A stretch of 64,000 bases of DNA from Bacteroidales bacterium. GTDB lineage: Bacteria > Bacteroidota > Bacteroidia > Bacteroidales > VadinHA17. This document shows positions 42,487 to 64,000 of this stretch, piece after piece. The notes under the pieces were generated by a model. That model did not search any database. It worked only from the letters and a program-made list of their open reading frames with translations, and was not told the DNA's origin. How positions within the stretch are numbered: the stretch's first letter is position 1; the number at the start of each line of letters is the position of its first letter. The position numbers and the translations under genes were made by a program. Location of the stretch: assembly GCA_029974835.1 (NCBI GenBank), contig JARKQN010000065.1, positions 29,123 to 93,122 of the forward strand. The letters run 5' to 3'.

Positions 42487-42829
42487 ACGATCAGGTTTTA
42501 GTATGACCTACTCTTAAGGCTTTTCGGATTACGCCCCGTTTTTTAAGTGGTTTCTGGTCTCCACTTTATTAATTCAATATTAGTGGTTTTTAAGTAAAAA
42601 ACAAATATTAAACCTGCAATATTCAGGTAAGGTATCTTTAATCCTGAAAACTTCTGACTGCACAGAAATGTCGGTTACTAAACGGCTTCGATGGTTGAAG
42701 CGGCTCCGGGATTTTATAGCCGAATGCCTTCTGCGGGTCTATCCCAAGCTGCCCAAATACATTGTGCTGCCGCTTAAGGAAGAAACAAAGCAGACATGCG
42801 AATTTTCCGTTAACACTCTTTTTGGGGCG

Positions 42830-56203: not shown

Positions 56204-56294
56204 GGTTTTCGGTTTTAAATAATTAATCTGGTTATTAAGCAAAACTTAAACCCGGATGGAGGAAACAAATTTCCTGCAGGGTGTTCACATTTTT

Positions 56295-56615
56295 CTATTT
56301 GATTGATAGTAACGGTATTAGATATCCTAAAAGTGCTCCCAGAATCAGAGTCATAATAAAAACCGGAATCAAGGATTTTGGTTCTTTCCATCCAATAAGC
56401 ACTGCACAGGGGGTTAATACAAGGAAAGAAATAAGGATACCTTCTAAAACAGGATTCATGTTCAGGTCGACGGTGGCGATAAAAAAGCCAACGATTACCC
56501 ACATCAAAAATGCTGAGATATTTGCGTCCCAGGTCAGCTTTTTAATAATCATTGGTATTACGTCTATAACTCCGGCAGCAATACCCAGAATAATTCCGAT
56601 AATGATTGTTTTCAT
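56295..56615 (-). CDS. small membrane protein, hypothetical
   Basis: glycine-rich three-TM pattern. Confidence 0.6.
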   Translation of the reverse strand: MKTIIIGIILGIAAGVIDVIPMIIKKLTWDANISAFLMWVIVGFFIATVDLNMNPVLEGILISFLVLTPCAVLIGWKEPKSLIPVFIMTLILGALLGYLIPLLSIK

Positions 56616-56668
56616 GTTTTTGGGTTTTTATGTTGCTATTATCATTGTGCAGAGAGGTTTTACATGAC

Positions 56669-56785
56669 GCATAACGGTTCGGTAATATGGAGAGGTTCCC
56701 GATAAATCGGGACGGGAGCAAAAGGTGTAACTATATATCCCGCAAAGTGGAAAGCAAAGGACCTTGAAAGTCCATGTTAGTTGGT
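56669..56785 (-). repeat. attC-like intercassette site A
   Basis: GCATAACGGTTCGGTAATATGGAGAGGTTCCCGATAAATCGGGAC ... CATGTTAGTTGGT. Confidence 0.55.
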
Positions 56786-56817
56786 CTAATTTTAATCCTG
56801 TATAAATATGCCAATCT

Positions 56818-57114
56818 CTATTTCTTATTGTATACCAGAATTGTTTTTCTTTCTCCGGCTGGATTTTTGGAAAACGATTCTATTACCAGTGTTTTTCCGT
56901 TATCAATTAGTTTATAAGTATCATCAATTCTGTATTCAGCAGTACTTACGCCGGGGTCGAATGTCATAATTTTTGTTATCGTAAGAGTGTTCTTGTCATC
57001 AGACCATTTTGCGATTTTCTTGGTTATACCCATATCACTCTTTTCGACTGTCTCTTTTCCATTAAGGTAAAACGTATCATTATTTTTAATATCGTCGCTA
57101 CCTTGTCGTATCAA
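56818..57114 (-). CDS. secreted hypothetical protein, coding region likely extends to about 57300 without an ATG
   Basis: called start is TTG; upstream in-frame reads SKSCLILTVLLFSSISIIAQTPIDFSGKWVFDKSKSYPGEGGSFLEGDEILSITQTAASISIEH. Confidence 0.55.
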   Translation of the reverse strand: MIRQGSDDIKNNDTFYLNGKETVEKSDMGITKKIAKWSDDKNTLTITKIMTFDPGVSTAEYRIDDTYKLIDNGKTLVIESFSKNPAGERKTILVYNKK

Positions 57115-57440
57115 GATATGCTCGATTGATATTGATGCAGCTGTTTGGGTAATAGAAAGAATTTCATCTCCCTCTAAAAAGGAACCACCTTCACCAGGGT
57201 AGCTTTTTGATTTATCAAATACCCATTTACCTGAAAAATCTATTGGAGTTTGAGCAATGATTGAAATTGAAGAAAATAGAAGAACTGTGAGAATAAGGCA
57301 AGATTTGGAAATTAAGTTATTCTCTTTGATGAAAAGTATGTTGAATGTAATGATAAATAAATTTAAAGTTAGGTTTAAAATTGAATATAATTCTAAAGAT
57401 AGTAATTTCTTATATGTCTTAATTATGGAGGAAACAATCT

Positions 57441-57574
57441 GAATGCAACCTGCCTGAAAGCGGAAACAGGCCGTAAAAGCAAAAACCGTGTCTGACAGGC
57501 ATCAGCCCGGCAGGCGTGACAACTTGTCCCGAGACCACGGGAAACAACTTACCCTATTGTCCGTGTTAGCTTTA
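57441..57574 (-). repeat. attC-like intercassette site B (left end degenerate)
   Basis: ends ATTGTCCGTGTTAGCTTTA; internal AAAACCGTG and CGTGACAACTTGTCCCG shared with site C. Confidence 0.6.
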
Positions 57575-58102
57575 GGTTTTTAATTTAAGGTCATGGTAAT
57601 ACTTTTCCAAAGATTTTAAAGTAGTCCAGCTCTTTTGGTTTGGAATATGGATTTCAAATTTTCTAATTTTCTTCGATGTTTTGATATAAACAAAGTTATT
57701 TATGCCGCTATGGTAGGAGAATAGACTTAAAATTGGAACAATAAAAAAATCAGAAAAGGTAGAAGTATTTAATCCCTCATATCCCGCAAGCTTAAACTTA
57801 ATTATGTGGATTGATTCTATGTTAATTATCTCTTTGTCACCAAATATTTCAATTTCGATTTGTTCAGTTGAAAATGAAATGTGTCCAATGGATTTTTTGA
57901 ATTTATATGAATAGTTCATGATGAAAAGACAAATTAAAAAAGTCAAAGCAGAAATAGCCATTAGCAACTTCGCAATAGCAGAGGGAATCCTATGACCGAA
58001 AATACCAACCGTAATTATTAGCAGAACACCAAATAACAAACCATAGATGGCATAAAGCTTAACAGGCCGCCTCTTTTTACTTACAATTTCTAAAGTTAAC
58101 AT
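57572..58102 (-). CDS. two-TM membrane protein with C-terminal beta-rich domain, cassette-borne
   Basis: ORF; stop codon lies inside the attC-like boundary. Confidence 0.65.
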   Translation of the reverse strand: MLTLEIVSKKRRPVKLYAIYGLLFGVLLIITVGIFGHRIPSAIAKLLMAISALTFLICLFIMNYSYKFKKSIGHISFSTEQIEIEIFGDKEIINIESIHIIKFKLAGYEGLNTSTFSDFFIVPILSLFSYHSGINNFVYIKTSKKIRKFEIHIPNQKSWTTLKSLEKYYHDLKLKT

Positions 58103-58138
58103 TTATAGATGATTATATTAGTTGCATACGGTTGGATT

Positions 58139-58428
58139 TAAAGCTAACGGCCAGGCGGTTGAGGGAGTAAGCGTCCCCGAGTCCTCTGGGTGGCGCACTT
58201 TTTGCCGTCTTTGCCCTCCGAAGCCTTCTTTGAGAGCCGTAGCCTCGGTGAAGGCTCTGGCGAAGGAAGGCCGGGTACAAGGTAAGTTCGGTGCCGGTAT
58301 CCAGTCACGATATTAACTTGTTTAATTGCGAGCAGGAGCATCCCGATAGCTATCGGGAGCAAAAACCGTGACAACTTGTCCCGCCAAAGGCGGGAAGCTA
58401 ATTACACCTCCCGTCCGTGTTAGCCTTA
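58139..58428 (-). repeat. oversized attC-like site C
   Basis: TAAAGCTAACGGCCAGGCGG ... ACCTCCCGTCCGTGTTAGCCTTA. Confidence 0.7.
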
Positions 58429-58444
58429 GCTTTTTATTTTTTCT

Positions 58445-58768
58445 TTAGTCAACGAAGGTCTCCTTCAGAACAGCTTTAACCTCTTTAATCTCGGGTTTCG
58501 ATAATTTTCCAAGGTCCTTGAGGATGCGTTGTTTATCTATAGTCCTGATTTGATCCAGAACAATCCAGCCAATCTTGTTTTCATGTTTTATTTCAACTCG
58601 GGTAGGATAGTTTTTGGAACTTGTTGTCATAGGGGCAATTACAACAGTTCTTAAGTGGTTGTTCATTTCGTCTGGTGAAATTACAATGCAAGGTCTTGTT
58701 TTCTTAATCTCGCTGCCAATAGTTGGATCAAGGTTTACAAGAATGATCTGATACTGTCTTATTTCCAT
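58445..58768 (-). CDS. MazF/PemK-family toxin
   Basis: RQYQIILVNLDPTIGSEIKKTRPCIVISPDEMN...VVIAPMTTSS. Confidence 0.95.
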   Translation of the reverse strand: MEIRQYQIILVNLDPTIGSEIKKTRPCIVISPDEMNNHLRTVVIAPMTTSSKNYPTRVEIKHENKIGWIVLDQIRTIDKQRILKDLGKLSKPEIKEVKAVLKETFVD

Positions 58769-59004
58769 TCCTCAAGGTTTTCTTCTTCAAAGATGTCTGG
58801 CATGATGAGTTTGTCATCACCGTTTGCATGCATTTCTTTAAATGCTTTATCCCAGCCTTTTCGAGGTCTGGAAAGGGGTTTGATGATTATATGTCCTTTA
58901 TCCAGAATCATTTCTACAGTATCACGGATATTATATCTCTCAATAATGGTTTTGCTGAACCTTATCCCCTTCGAATTTCCAATTTTTACAACTGATACTT
59001 CCAT
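58759..59004 (-). CDS. MazE/AbrB-type antitoxin
   Basis: VVKIGNSKGIRFSKTIIERYNI; overlaps toxin start by 10 bp. Confidence 0.93.
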   Translation of the reverse strand: MEVSVVKIGNSKGIRFSKTIIERYNIRDTVEMILDKGHIIIKPLSRPRKGWDKAFKEMHANGDDKLIMPDIFEEENLEEWK

Positions 59005-59159
59005 GATTTAATCATTTTTGATGTAATTACAAAGTTATTACAGATTATTGAAATTTCCAAATACTTATTATCTTTTTGTTGGTAATCTGTCTCGGTGTTG
59101 CCAATGTCTCATTATGAGCAGAAACTAAAGAAAGCTTAATCTTTCACAAAGCCCCGTGT

Positions 59160-59567
59160 TAAGGCTAACTGCCCGGAAATATGGGGAGGTTGTGTCCCCG
59201 CCAACGACGGGGTGGCGCACTTTTTGCCGTCTTTGCCTTCCGTAGCCTTTTTTGAGAGCCGTAGCCTCGGCGAAGGCTCTGGCGAAGGAAGGCCAGGTAC
59301 ACATTTTATTTAGCATTACGCGTGTCGCGCCGTGCCCCGCAGAAGCGAAGCGAAAGCGGGGGTACAATTTTGATCGGAACCACGAATTTATCACTGGTTA
59401 CAAAACTTGTTGGGAGCACTGGCGCAGTGTCGCGCCGAAGGCCCTGACCGACCGGAGGGAGCGTCATGTGTGCAGGGGCAAATGTTGAGGTGCGCAGCGA
59501 CGAAACCCCGCCCTGGCGGGGCAAAAAGTGTGACAAACAACTTACCCATATTGTCTGCGTTAGTGGC
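59160..59567 (-). repeat. oversized attC-like site D
   Basis: TAAGGCTAAC ... GTTAGTGGC; outer arms AATATGGGGAGGTTGT / ACAACTTACCCATATT. Confidence 0.72.
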
Positions 59568-59596
59568 TGTTATATTTTCATAGGATCAATTTTTAT

Positions 59597-60196
59597 TCAT
59601 AGAGATGGGTAGAATCTGGGAGGAATTACATTATGAAATAATAATCCTGCAAATCCTACACTTAATGAAAAGATGTTACCAGAGATAGAATTGTCATTGT
59701 AATTGTCTTTTAAATTTAGCGTATGATAACCTCCCTCAAAGACTAATCCGATGTGTGATTTGACAGGGATAATCATACCAAAGCCAAAAAATATATCATG
59801 TCCTGAAGCATTAGCATTATCAAGACTCATTTCATAACGACGTATTCCTAAGTCAAGAAAAGGGTAAGCTATACTTTGAGCGTTTCCAAACACATAACCC
59901 ATTTGGGGACCAAAGCCAGTGGAATTAGATTTATAATTTTTTGTTGACCCATTTGAAAATTCAATTCCACCTCCAATAAAGAAATTCTTAAAGATAAAAT
60001 AATTGATATTTGCTGCAAAGTTTATGATTTTTGCATTATTACCACCGGGATCCACGAAAAGATCACCTCCCTGACTCGCATAACTGCCTAATCCAAAAAT
60101 GATTTTTGCATTCTTATCGATAGCATACGTTTGTGCTGAAACGGAAATGCAAAGTCCAAAAAAATAGAAGATTAAAAGTAAAGCTTTGTTTCTCAT
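59597..60196 (-). CDS. outer-membrane beta-barrel protein, cassette-borne
   Basis: signal peptide ALLLIFYFFGLCISVSAQ; barrel-like strands. Confidence 0.75.
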   Translation of the reverse strand: MRNKALLLIFYFFGLCISVSAQTYAIDKNAKIIFGLGSYASQGGDLFVDPGGNNAKIINFAANINYFIFKNFFIGGGIEFSNGSTKNYKSNSTGFGPQMGYVFGNAQSIAYPFLDLGIRRYEMSLDNANASGHDIFFGFGMIIPVKSHIGLVFEGGYHTLNLKDNYNDNSISGNIFSLSVGFAGLLFHNVIPPRFYPSL

Positions 60197-60258
60197 GATA
60201 TTATAATTTATATAGAATGTTTTTATATTTAAGTTTATGTTTGGTGTAGGTACAAATG

Positions 60259-60394
60259 GCCACTAACGTTCGGTGGTATGCGCAGTGCGTGAGTCAAAGC
60301 GCTAACTTGTCGAGTTACTGCAATGGTTATTAAATGAACTGATAATAAAACAGGCACAGCACCCCGGATTGCTTATGACTGCATGTTGTGTTCA
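60259..60394 (-). repeat. attC-like site E
   Basis: GCCACTAACGTTCGG ... GCATGTTGTGTTCA; shares GTGCGTGA-TCAAAG with site G. Confidence 0.65.
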
Positions 60395-60398
60395 GTTT

Positions 60399-60782
60399 TT
60401 ATTTTTTTCTTTTTTCAAATTCAATCAATTCAATAGGAGCCCCGTTATGCTCAATCATAGCAACTCTTGTTCCCTCGCCTGGAGAATTCGGAGAAGTGAT
60501 AATATTAAATTCTCGTCTTGTAAGTTCAAAGTCCAAGTCATCAACTTCAAAGGCTATGTGTGGTACTTTCTTAATCAAGTCGTTAATCGGACAATCCTTA
60601 TCGAACCTCATCCATTCTATACCATAGGGACTTGTTTCAAATCCGGAAACGTATAATTTAAACTGTGGCAAGTATCTTTCACCATCAATCGGCTTATCCG
60701 TGGGTATTCCTATGTGATGATAACGCCAACCCCATTCTGATGTTGCCAATGGGAGTTCATTATCTTGTCTTTTTACATTCAT
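60399..60782 (-). CDS. VOC/glyoxalase-fold protein, cassette-borne
   Basis: WRYHHIGIPTDKP...PHIAFEVDDLDFELTRREFNIITSPNSPGEGTRVAMIEHNGAPIELIEF; start trimmed to 60782. Confidence 0.88.
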   Translation of the reverse strand: MNVKRQDNELPLATSEWGWRYHHIGIPTDKPIDGERYLPQFKLYVSGFETSPYGIEWMRFDKDCPINDLIKKVPHIAFEVDDLDFELTRREFNIITSPNSPGEGTRVAMIEHNGAPIELIEFEKRKK

Positions 60783-60809
60783 AATTGGGGTGTGTCTTTT
60801 TTTTACAAT

Positions 60810-61220
60810 TGAACACAACCGGCCCGGCAATATGGGGAGGTTCCCGATAAATCGGGACAAGTCGTGTTACCCGACGCAGCATCCGGGCAGAAACCCGGTA
60901 CCCCGCCCCGCCTCAGGCGGGGGGGCCACAAAACTGTCACGCTGCGCCCCGCAGTAGCGAAGCGGAGGCGGGGGTGCAAGGAGGGGAAGCCTGCCCCGCA
61001 GAAGCGAAGCGAAAGCGGGGGTACAAGTTTGATCGGAGCCAGAAAGCTGTCACGGTGCAGGATTTAAATTGCGGACCGATGCGCGTATCCGGGTGCAAGA
61101 ACCATTACAAATTTGTCTTAGGAGCAGGAGCAAAAGTTGAGGGGCGCAGCGACGAAACCCCGCCCTGGCGGGGCAAAAACCGTGACAAGCTTATTACCCC
61201 AACCGTCCGTGTTATGCGTA
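60810..61220 (-). repeat. oversized attC-like site F
   Basis: TGAACACAACCGGCCCGGCAATATGGGG ... CCGTCCGTGTTATGCGTA. Confidence 0.7.
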
Positions 61221-61226
61221 GTTTTT

Positions 61227-63110
61227 TTATTCTATTATTAAAGTCCTGAATTTTGGATATTTGACAGAGTATTTCAGATCAATATCTTTTTTCTCAGTAG
61301 GCTTTAATTGAAAATCCCACTTTATTATTCCTGTTTCAGAATCTAGTTTGCCATTTGAGATATTGACTGGGCTAACCTCAATCTCCTCAAGCGTAGATAC
61401 GGGAATTTGATCTGAGAGAGAAATATTAATGCTTTGTTGTTTATTGTTTTTAACACTTATTAGCCATGTTTTAGTTTCTTCCTTCTTGCTCCCAAGAAAT
61501 TGCTTGGTTGTAAATTGTTTTTGAATTTCTCGTTTGATGCTAACTCCTTTGTCCTTTCCAAGCGATATTGTAAGGGTATCAGACATATATCTTACATCAA
61601 GAAGTGTTTTTCCTGTATAAGTGTCTTCGAAGAAAACATTTGCCTCACCTTCTAGAAGATTATATTTTTCCCAGTCAACAATTCGAGCTATCAAATATGC
61701 ATCCTTATCTATTTTTGGAGTACAGAAATACTGATAATCAGCAGGTAAAGAGTAATTATCAATGTCAATAGTCAAGTTTTTACCATCCGATGGAATTGTA
61801 TAGGGAGTTTTAATCTCAAATTCTACACTTGTTTGATTTGAGACTTGTTCTGTCTCAATAATTGTACTGCTGGGCTGTGTTGGTTCTAATGATTTTGTTT
61901 GCTTACTTCTTGTAGTACTTATCCCTGATACGCGCCCTTGCAAAGCATCAGATACTCCATAACCTGTAACAACTACCTCTTGTAGGGCAAGAACTTCTTC
62001 TTCCATTCTGAAATCCATTTGGGGGCTAGTAATGGGTGCTTCAATTTGTTTGTAGCCAATAAAAGAAATTTGAAGTACTCCGCCATTTTGTGGTACAGAA
62101 ATGGAATAAGCGCCATTAGCCTCAGTTACAGTTCCAATCGAAGTACCTTTAATCATAACAATTGCACCCGGTATTGGATCCTTTGCATTGCTATCATATA
62201 TGCGCCCAGAGACCTGTGAGATATTATTTCTATATGAGGGAGCAACTGTGTTGTAGTTTAAAAAATAGGGTTGTAGTTCTCTATAGGCATTTGAAGTATT
62301 TGGATCAGCCGATGATAATTTAAGTTTGATATTTTTCCAATCCTCATTTGTGAACTGGTGAACATTTGCTTTGTAGGTTAAGTCAGCAGGGAGTTCAATA
62401 TTTTTAACCTTAATGTCGTATGATGGAGTCCAACCGGCATTTGATACTATATATTTAATTTCAAAGGCAGCCTTTGTAGGACTTTTTGATTCAAGATTTA
62501 AAATGATTTCTCCAGTTGGAAGTTCCTTTTTATTGGTCAATGAGGACAGTTGACTTTCAACCTTTTGCAAGTCTTTTGCTAATTGGTCTAAAGTGGTCTG
62601 ACGATCTATCTGTTTTAATTTTATCGCAGTGATTTTTTCAATGAAATAAGCATTTGCCTCTTTCAGGGAAGTCAAGTTTGTCCCAGTATTTGCACCCCCT
62701 ATGGTACTATTTGTTTTAAGGAAAAGTAACTCCTCATTTAGGATGTCGAGATATGCACTTTCTGTTTTTATCTTTTTTTCTATATCAAGCTTACTTTTTG
62801 TCAATTCTTCGCTTTCTTTTGATTTAGATTGTTGAGTCAAAAAATTCTGCTGAAGATTGACAGATAGTACTTTAAAATCACCTTTTGCATTGACACTTAT
62901 GCTTTTTGAATCAATAAACGGAGAGAGGTTTACAAACTTAAGAGTTGTCCTGCCAGTCGGGATATCAATTGTCTTTGATCTTGTAATCTGTGCTCCGTTC
63001 GTATAAACAGTTACTTCACTTATTTCAGATTTTATTTCAATCTCTTGGGGAGTCTGGCTAAATGATGTAAGAGTCAATGTGCAGAGCAGAATTAGAATTG
63101 ATTTTTTCAT
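61227..63110 (-). CDS. DUF4139/MuiA-like protein with embedded carboxypeptidase-regulatory-like and TonB-plug-like segment
   Basis: N-terminal VTVYTNGAQITRSKTIDIPTGRTTLKFVNLSPFID; middle VSGRIYDSNAKDPIPGAIVMIKGT...LQEVVVTGYGVSDALQGRVSGI; C-terminal DUF4139-like. Confidence 0.85.
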   Translation of the reverse strand: MKKSILILLCTLTLTSFSQTPQEIEIKSEISEVTVYTNGAQITRSKTIDIPTGRTTLKFVNLSPFIDSKSISVNAKGDFKVLSVNLQQNFLTQQSKSKESEELTKSKLDIEKKIKTESAYLDILNEELLFLKTNSTIGGANTGTNLTSLKEANAYFIEKITAIKLKQIDRQTTLDQLAKDLQKVESQLSSLTNKKELPTGEIILNLESKSPTKAAFEIKYIVSNAGWTPSYDIKVKNIELPADLTYKANVHQFTNEDWKNIKLKLSSADPNTSNAYRELQPYFLNYNTVAPSYRNNISQVSGRIYDSNAKDPIPGAIVMIKGTSIGTVTEANGAYSISVPQNGGVLQISFIGYKQIEAPITSPQMDFRMEEEVLALQEVVVTGYGVSDALQGRVSGISTTRSKQTKSLEPTQPSSTIIETEQVSNQTSVEFEIKTPYTIPSDGKNLTIDIDNYSLPADYQYFCTPKIDKDAYLIARIVDWEKYNLLEGEANVFFEDTYTGKTLLDVRYMSDTLTISLGKDKGVSIKREIQKQFTTKQFLGSKKEETKTWLISVKNNKQQSINISLSDQIPVSTLEEIEVSPVNISNGKLDSETGIIKWDFQLKPTEKKDIDLKYSVKYPKFRTLIIE

Positions 63111-63154
63111 TGCTTATAGTATTTAGTTATATTTCATGTAGTTACGTTACGAAT

Positions 63155-63288
63155 TACGCATAACGTCCGCGTGTATGAACCGTTGCGTGATTCAAAGAGA
63201 TTTGTTGTCTAAATAGAACAAGGCAACCAAGTGAACTAACTTACGTAAACCTGCTACCAGCAATGGCTTATACACGCTGTTGTATGCT
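63155..63288 (-). repeat. attC-like site G (strong imperfect palindrome)
   Basis: GCATAACGTCCGCGTGTATGAACCGTTGC (63158-63186) vs GCAATGGCTTATACACGCTGTTGTATGC (63260-63287). Confidence 0.8.
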
Positions 63289-63294
63289 GGTTTA

Positions 63295-63930
63295 TTATCT
63301 TCTTTCATCTAGTCTTTTCTCAATTCTGAAAATCAGTCCAAAAACAAATTCAAAATAGGGTTTTGATGCTTCTTTCGCGAATGTTTCCATATTTAGTGCC
63401 TGTAAAAATGGGATAACCTTTTGATTTAAACCAACCTCATTTATATCGCCAGGTTTATTAAAATTACCTTGAAATGCTATTAGTTCATCAGGTAAACCAG
63501 CTAAAGTTTTACTTGAGTCTGCATGAGAAAACCCATTTCTCATTAGTTCTCGAATTGTATCAAAAAGAATTCTGTGTTCCTTATCAGTAATTATTTCTAA
63601 GTCTTTACATTTATCAATAGAGTTACCTAAGTTAATTGAACCGTACTTTTTATTTGGACCTTCAAATACTGAATTCCACTGGTCGACTGGTATTGGTCCA
63701 ATTCCAACTTCATAGTTTATTAACGCTAATTTTAAAAGTCGTTCTAATAAGTGATTTGTCAATGTAATTGCTGCTCTATGAAATTCAAGTATTAAGCATT
63801 TGTTTATTTCGAAAATTAAAGTATCTAATTCGTTAAATATCTTTAATTTAAAATCAAAGTATTTCGATAATTCTGGATAGTTCTTATTTAAACTATCAAT
63901 AAAGCTTTTTTCGAATAATTCTTTGTCCAT
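63295..63930 (-). CDS. HEPN-like protein, cassette-borne
   Basis: helical; IRELMRNGFSHAD carries Rx4H with RN (RNGFSH). Confidence 0.6.
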   Translation of the reverse strand: MDKELFEKSFIDSLNKNYPELSKYFDFKLKIFNELDTLIFEINKCLILEFHRAAITLTNHLLERLLKLALINYEVGIGPIPVDQWNSVFEGPNKKYGSINLGNSIDKCKDLEIITDKEHRILFDTIRELMRNGFSHADSSKTLAGLPDELIAFQGNFNKPGDINEVGLNQKVIPFLQALNMETFAKEASKPYFEFVFGLIFRIEKRLDERR

Positions 63931-63946
63931 GATTTTGTTTTAAACT

Positions 63947-64000
63947 AGCATACAACGGCCCGGCAATATGGGTAGGTTGTGTCCCCGCCAACGGCGGGGT
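63947..64000 (-). repeat. attC-like site H (truncated by window end)
   Basis: AGCATACAACGGCCCGGCAATATGGGTAGGTTGTGTCCCCGCCAACGGCGGGG. Confidence 0.7.

Follow-up and report, generated by a model that had tools for sequence, protein, structure and literature searches.

The imperfect palindrome at positions 63155-63288 (site G) of the 64,000-nt stretch of DNA analysed here, referred to as the window, is very probably one of the recombination sites of an integron-like array made up of mobile gene cassettes, each unit of which comprises an ORF and, behind it, an attC-like site. This reading draws on the anatomy of the array itself and on its comparison with related loci, the evidence base being MAGs.

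Cassette array of the window

The array occupied approximately 56.3-64.0 kb of the window, where minus-strand ORFs alternated with imperfect palindromes (six or more sites), and it ran off the contig end (contig position 93122, corresponding to window position 64000). The ORFs of all six cassettes lay on the minus strand, and since their stops were close to the sites, each unit reads flank, ORF and site on that strand; the array therefore reads from right to left, which would place an integrase past the end of the contig. The features are listed below in this direction.

63954..64000, minus strand: arm of the next site, of the long class (repeat D6), cut by the contig end
63279..63956, minus strand: cassette 1, flanks GTTGTATGCT / AGCATACAAC; ORF 63295-63930, 211 aa; flank match 7/7 after GTT
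63162..63281, minus strand: site G, attC-like, 120 nt; AAC-A-GCGTGTAT ... ATACACGC-GGAC-GTT on the coding (minus) strand, arms verified
61211..63164, minus strand: cassette 2, flanks GTTATGCGTA / TACGCATAAC; ORF 61227-63110, DUF4139/MuiA-like with a CarboxypepD_reg domain
60817..61213, minus strand: site E, long class, 397 nt; AACACGGAC... / ...GCCGGGCCGGTT
60385..60819, minus strand: cassette 3, flanks GTTGTGTTCA / TGAACACAAC; ORF 60399-60782, 127 aa, no family found
60265..60387, minus strand: site D, short class by length, 123 nt; degenerate arms, 13/24 pairs
59559..60267, minus strand: cassette 4, flanks GTTAGTGGC / GGCCACTAAC; ORF 59597-60196, outer-membrane beta-barrel protein (OMP)
59167..59561, minus strand: site C, long class, 395 nt
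58419..59169, minus strand: cassette 5, flanks GTTAGCCTTA / TAAGGCTAAC; MazF/PemK-like toxin 58445-58768 and 81-aa partner 58759-59004
58146..58421, minus strand: site B, long class, 276 nt
57565..58148, minus strand: cassette 6, flanks GTTAGCTTTA / TAAAGCTAAC; ORF 57572-58102, 176 aa, no family found
57436..57567, minus strand: site A, AACACGGACAATAGGGTAAGTTGTTT arm intact, other arm eroded, left border approximate
56281..56779, minus strand: distal, partly eroded array end; site remnant with arms 56669-56713 and 56770-56779, cassette with a 106-aa ORF at 56295-56615

All six cassettes were found to share complementarity between their own ends, in that the seven bases after the start GTT (GTTnnnnnnn) were complementary to the seven bases before the end AAC of the same cassette (nnnnnnnAAC). 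The matches summed to 41/42 positions, against a mean of 19.3 over the pairings, and the pairing of each cassette with itself was the only one among 720 assignments to reach this sum; a chain of six flank-matched units arose in none of 1000 shuffles of the last 9 kb, the longest comprising four. Chance repeats are thus ruled out by the flank permutation and the shuffles. The boxes facing each other across a site matched at only 2-7 of 10 positions, because they belong to different cassettes. Such own-flank complementarity is a signature of integron cassettes, and the pattern is what a cassette circularising through its own ends would give. Tandem cassettes with complementary start and end boxes of the GTTRRRY / RYYYAAC type, by which integrons are recognised, were accordingly present in the window, and chains of them were present in relatives. 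The remnant at 56776-57442 departed from the flank rule and was treated as eroded.

No family was found for the 211-aa ORF of cassette 1 in Pfam or PADLOC, and homologues of cassette 2 with 73% identity occurred in two other genomes (G112 and G314). Four of the five fully bounded window sites were without a clean short stem, site D being degenerate and sites B, C and E being long (276-397 nt). The long-class sites were built from reusable GC-rich modules, for example CCCCGCAGAAGCGAAGCGAAAGCGGGGG (58188-58280, 59210-59301, 59323-59367 and 60935-61026), which were common to different sites and different genomes. Elsewhere in the window, a DUF805 RNA element was located at 42501-42569 on the minus strand with 81.6 bits, above the gathering score.

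Structure of site G and its relatives

The first-pass annotation had described site G as a textbook-like attC, an imperfect palindrome with small gaps next to the GTT/AAC core. The palindrome and its gaps proved to be real, as the arms were present exactly as described and aligning the left arm locally, with gaps allowed, to the reverse-complemented right arm gave a score of 14, a value reached by 2 of 2000 dinucleotide shuffles (shuffle mean, 7.1). The functional borders were assigned to AAC at 63162-63164 and GTT at 63279-63281, between which the arms formed 17/24 ungapped pairs. On the minus strand, the spacer on the arm following the ORF of the upstream cassette was 1 nt (AAC-A-GCGTGTAT) and that on the other arm 4 nt (ATACACGC-GGAC-GTT), a difference of 3. 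The R boxes across the site paired poorly beyond AAC/GTT (3/10), as would be the case were the right box part of the following cassette. Thus, size, AAC/GTT ends, L-stem and neighbouring cassettes with self-complementary flanks make the site attC-like, while the weak R-box pairing takes it away from the textbook form. No Rfam family matched at site G. The single-strand folding with DNA parameters proposed in the annotation returned ordinary hairpin energies, -17.2 kcal/mol (z -1.5) for the plus strand and -14.7 kcal/mol (z -0.5) for the minus strand; the argument is accordingly built on comparison between sites, and fold energy was abandoned as the main test for sites as being too weak.

A 20-base pattern taken from the long sites was used to find related loci, and yielded 67 loci, mostly from MAGs labelled Bacteroidales or Bacteroidetes, several of which carried chains of 3-7 cassettes. 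The coding-strand consensus of 46 sites from these loci was AAC-ACGGAC-stem ... stem-GCCGGGCC-GTT. A stem of at least 7 bp was formed by the own arms in 36 of the 46 sites, against 16% of cross-site arm pairs, and the stems co-varied. In the short-class sites (n = 30, 120-127 nt), the arms paired ungapped at 18.3/24 positions compared with 13.6 for mixed arms, and the spacer beside GTT was longer than that beside AAC by 4 nt in 21 sites and by 3 nt in 7. With spacers of 1-3 and 4-7 nt, these sites possess the unpaired central spacer between R and L boxes that characterises attC. An extrahelical base in the L-stem, which likewise characterises attC, was not recognised, since a one-base bulge added at least 4 pairs in only 1 of the 30 sites; as a weak positive control, two canonical sites rose from 9 to 11 of 14 pairs with the bulge. 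Site G fitted the short-class pattern (17 pairs, difference 3) and site D did not (13 pairs).

These comparisons bear on a further proposal of the annotation, namely that the asymmetric unpaired bases of site G could be the extrahelical bases that confer strand polarity on attC. No such bases were needed in its L-stem, and the asymmetry resided in the spacer beside AAC/GTT. While strand choice in canonical attC is due mainly to extrahelical bases (PMC2727003), the unequal spacers are a candidate polarity mark of the present sites in their place. Taken together, the interpretation given in the annotation is partly supported: site G is attC-like, as its size, AAC/GTT ends and L-stem match those of the 118-119-nt sites of arrays having a recombinase and an attI-like leader and its neighbours are cassettes, but it is not a textbook attC. 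As the array-associated recombinase is not IntI, recombination with IntI1 would not be the decisive test for site G.

Recombinases and attI-like leaders in related arrays

In relatives, arrays were preceded by a recombinase gene (L101, L142 and L145), that of L101 encoding a 504-aa tyrosine recombinase (YR) directly 5' of the array. Recombinases of the L101 clade were detected in five more site-bearing genomes (three full-length, two as cut or frameshifted alignments), one of them of the window's genus, with an array or a contig end following the recombinase gene; this clade of 504-534-aa proteins was rare in the order. The family recombinases were of 345-534 aa and consisted of an N-terminal extension, PF13495 and PF00589. 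Between gene and array, a 66-bp leader was conserved without gaps in five genomes and ended exactly at the GTT of the first cassette, the rest of the leader not being conserved. A weight matrix built from the five leaders gave a further, untrained match in L037, exactly at a cassette border. A site next to the integrase gene, as expected for attI, was thus present in relatives. No attI-like leader was found for the window array, which is truncated where the contig stops.

The 395 genomes sampled from the class were searched with a family profile built from 12 recombinases (threshold, E <= 1e-95), which found members in 162 of them; the best 20 hits were inspected for leaders and arrays. The leader was present in 18 of these 20, ending TATAAAnnAGTT-like approximately 85-120 nt after the stop, and arrays of 2-7 cassettes, several of which had sites of 116-119 nt, started behind nine of them, while several others met the contig end first. 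The one-contig genome G764 carried recombinase, leader and four cassettes in order. In the relatives' arrays, the longer ORF was on the array strand in 36/40 cassettes. Furthermore, of 81 minus-strand hits, 17 had a contig end no more than 400 nt downstream of the recombinase, against 2 of 69 plus-strand hits with a contig end this close upstream (p 0.0009); a variable first cassette, or assembly breaks at repeats, would produce such a bias.

Several individual loci were also recorded. The contig of L149 (1-91) ended exactly at ...GACAAGTT downstream of the recombinase, which is the expected crossover point; in L244 and L260, the same kind of ORF appeared to be inserted between the recombinase and the expected leader, in the first 700-1700 nt downstream; and L107 encoded a YR with no array downstream. 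Some YRs from site-bearing genomes adjoined an IS91-type transposase, as in L151, where transposase-like sequence of this type (1037-1700) immediately followed a tyrosine recombinase from a neighbouring group; these were used only as other YRs.

The additional domain around patch III (I2), the insert specific to IntI, was absent from 15/15 family recombinases and present in 6/6 IntI, and the family scored 187-239 bits against the integron HMM (TIGR02249), below its cut-off of 265 that delimits IntI. The array system is therefore not a canonical integron by the accepted IntI-domain definition but, judged by its anatomy, would function as one. The nearest solved structures to the recombinase, whose fold model was of middling quality (pTM 0.53), were archaeal Xer (4a8e and 5hxy) and IntI4 (2a3v). 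In a first small tree, IntI was nested inside the cassette-associated recombinases; with more rows this placement lost its support and the clades split, and hence no ancestry is claimed. In the larger tree, Xer formed a separate clade (support 100/99) from which both IntI and the recombinase family stood apart, and the cassette-associated recombinases were not one clade, other YRs falling between them and IntI.

Among other explanations, the one that survives best, improbable as we judge it, is a CALIN of a canonical integron, whose ordinary attC sites would be acted upon by a canonical IntI located at another place in the cell or in the population. The GTT/AAC boxes and own-flank complementarity were the same as in the canonical control array L018, carried on the proteobacterial-looking IntI contig of G270, and IntI over the cut-off did occur in 5/295 genomes of the order and in 2/30 site-bearing genomes. 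However, the other 28 of those 30 were without it, it was another recombinase, with a conserved leader of its own, that headed the arrays, the spacers differed by 3-4 nt, and no extrahelical base was conserved. A canonical IntI heading the window array was also rejected, such a gene being rare in the order and, over the cut-off, absent from the window's genome (92% complete), in which no member of the recombinase family was seen either. The only such recombinases seen in that genome were XerC/XerD, which would suit passive cassettes using the host enzymes in the manner of IMEX phages; we regard this as still less probable, given that, leaving aside likeness to dif, the relatives' arrays were preceded by a dedicated non-Xer recombinase with its leader and the cassette borders were GTT/AAC with own-flank complementarity. 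Least probable of all is that unrelated genes are simply separated by intergenic repeats of an ordinary kind (REP/MITE-like or terminators), which would account for the recurrence of the GC-rich modules but leave unexplained the own-flank complementarity, the 118-119-nt spacing, the attI-first order and a 98%-identical cassette with GTT edges.

Probable cassette movement and relation to known integrons

This cassette, the OMP cassette of the window (59559-60267), was 98% identical in L037 (genome G304), where it was positioned directly behind the attI-like site; the homology started at GTT and ran approximately 24 nt into the following site. Considering that xerD of the two genomes shared 74% DNA identity, the cassette is far younger than the split of the genomes. 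In L037, the cassette with the 106-aa ORF came directly after the OMP cassette, whereas other units intervened between the two in the window, and the order had thus changed. Homologues of the toxin-antitoxin cassette (cassette 5) were found with other neighbours in G300, G307 and G310. These observations suggest that the cassettes recombine.

With respect to cargo, the anti-phage systems Pycsar, AriAB and PDC-S41, the last being a Schlafen-helicase defence candidate, were observed in cassettes (L101 13305-15090, L208 6696-8591 and L254 1715-3682), as were MazF-like toxins, and a cassette protein of L256 (1402-2172) contained a LinB-like nucleotidyltransferase domain. Chromosomal integrons of Vibrio also carry anti-phage cargo.

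In the mechanism that we propose for the integron-like array, one strand of a site would form a hairpin, to be bound by the recombinase at its AAC/GTT ends and its stem of 8-24 bp. The tyrosine recombinase would exchange strands at G|TT, the partner being either another such site or the double-stranded attI-like site that lies downstream of the recombinase gene. The unequal spacers may distinguish one strand or end from the other. Catalysis, the single-strand substrate and strand choice are here deduced from the comparisons above, as is the use of the family recombinase by the window array; since the window's genome yielded no family member, this link is by relatives, and the recombinase and attI of this genome would either have been lost or be located past the contig end, on the 5' side of the array.

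Like integrons, including chromosomal integrons and CALINs, the arrays combine cassettes of an ORF and a folded-site candidate, GTT/AAC boxes, complementarity between own start and end, an attI-like site beside the gene of a tyrosine recombinase, co-directional ORFs, and cassettes common to genomes in different order. They differ in that the recombinase is without the IntI-specific insert and its gene was oriented towards the array wherever the arrangement was read, that spacers are of 1-3 versus 4-7 nt with no conserved extrahelical base, and that some sites reach approximately 400 nt, compared with 57-142 nt for attC (PMC2727003). The recombinase resembles XerA/XerC/XerD in having archaeal Xer among its closest solved structures, but carries the N-terminal extension, adjoins cassette arrays and falls outside the Xer clade. 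IMEX of the CTX phage type share a stem-loop substrate without extrahelical bases (PMC4792948), whereas the present arrays adjoin their own candidate recombinase and attI-like site. A literature search, outside which lay preprints and most subscription journals, returned no description of this system.

On a broader reading, to which we give an even chance, Bacteroidota would harbour a widespread second kind of integron that recombines hairpins without I2 or extrahelical bases and uses spacer asymmetry for polarity, being either a living intermediate toward IntI or an independent origin of integrons. The origin of integrons has been framed as a chicken-and-egg paradox, in which selection for I2 would require existing attC sites, and selection for attC sites the domain recognising them (Escudero et al. 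2016, PMC4792948). Cassettes with attI-like and attC-like sites but without I2 or a conserved extrahelical base make this paradox testable, and a recombinase without the IntI-defining domain may represent a route to integrons that is earlier than, or parallel to, the known one. If this is true, cassette capture, including that of the anti-phage systems Pycsar and AriAB, would be common in the class despite the few integrons that IntI-based searches report there (PMC9024848).
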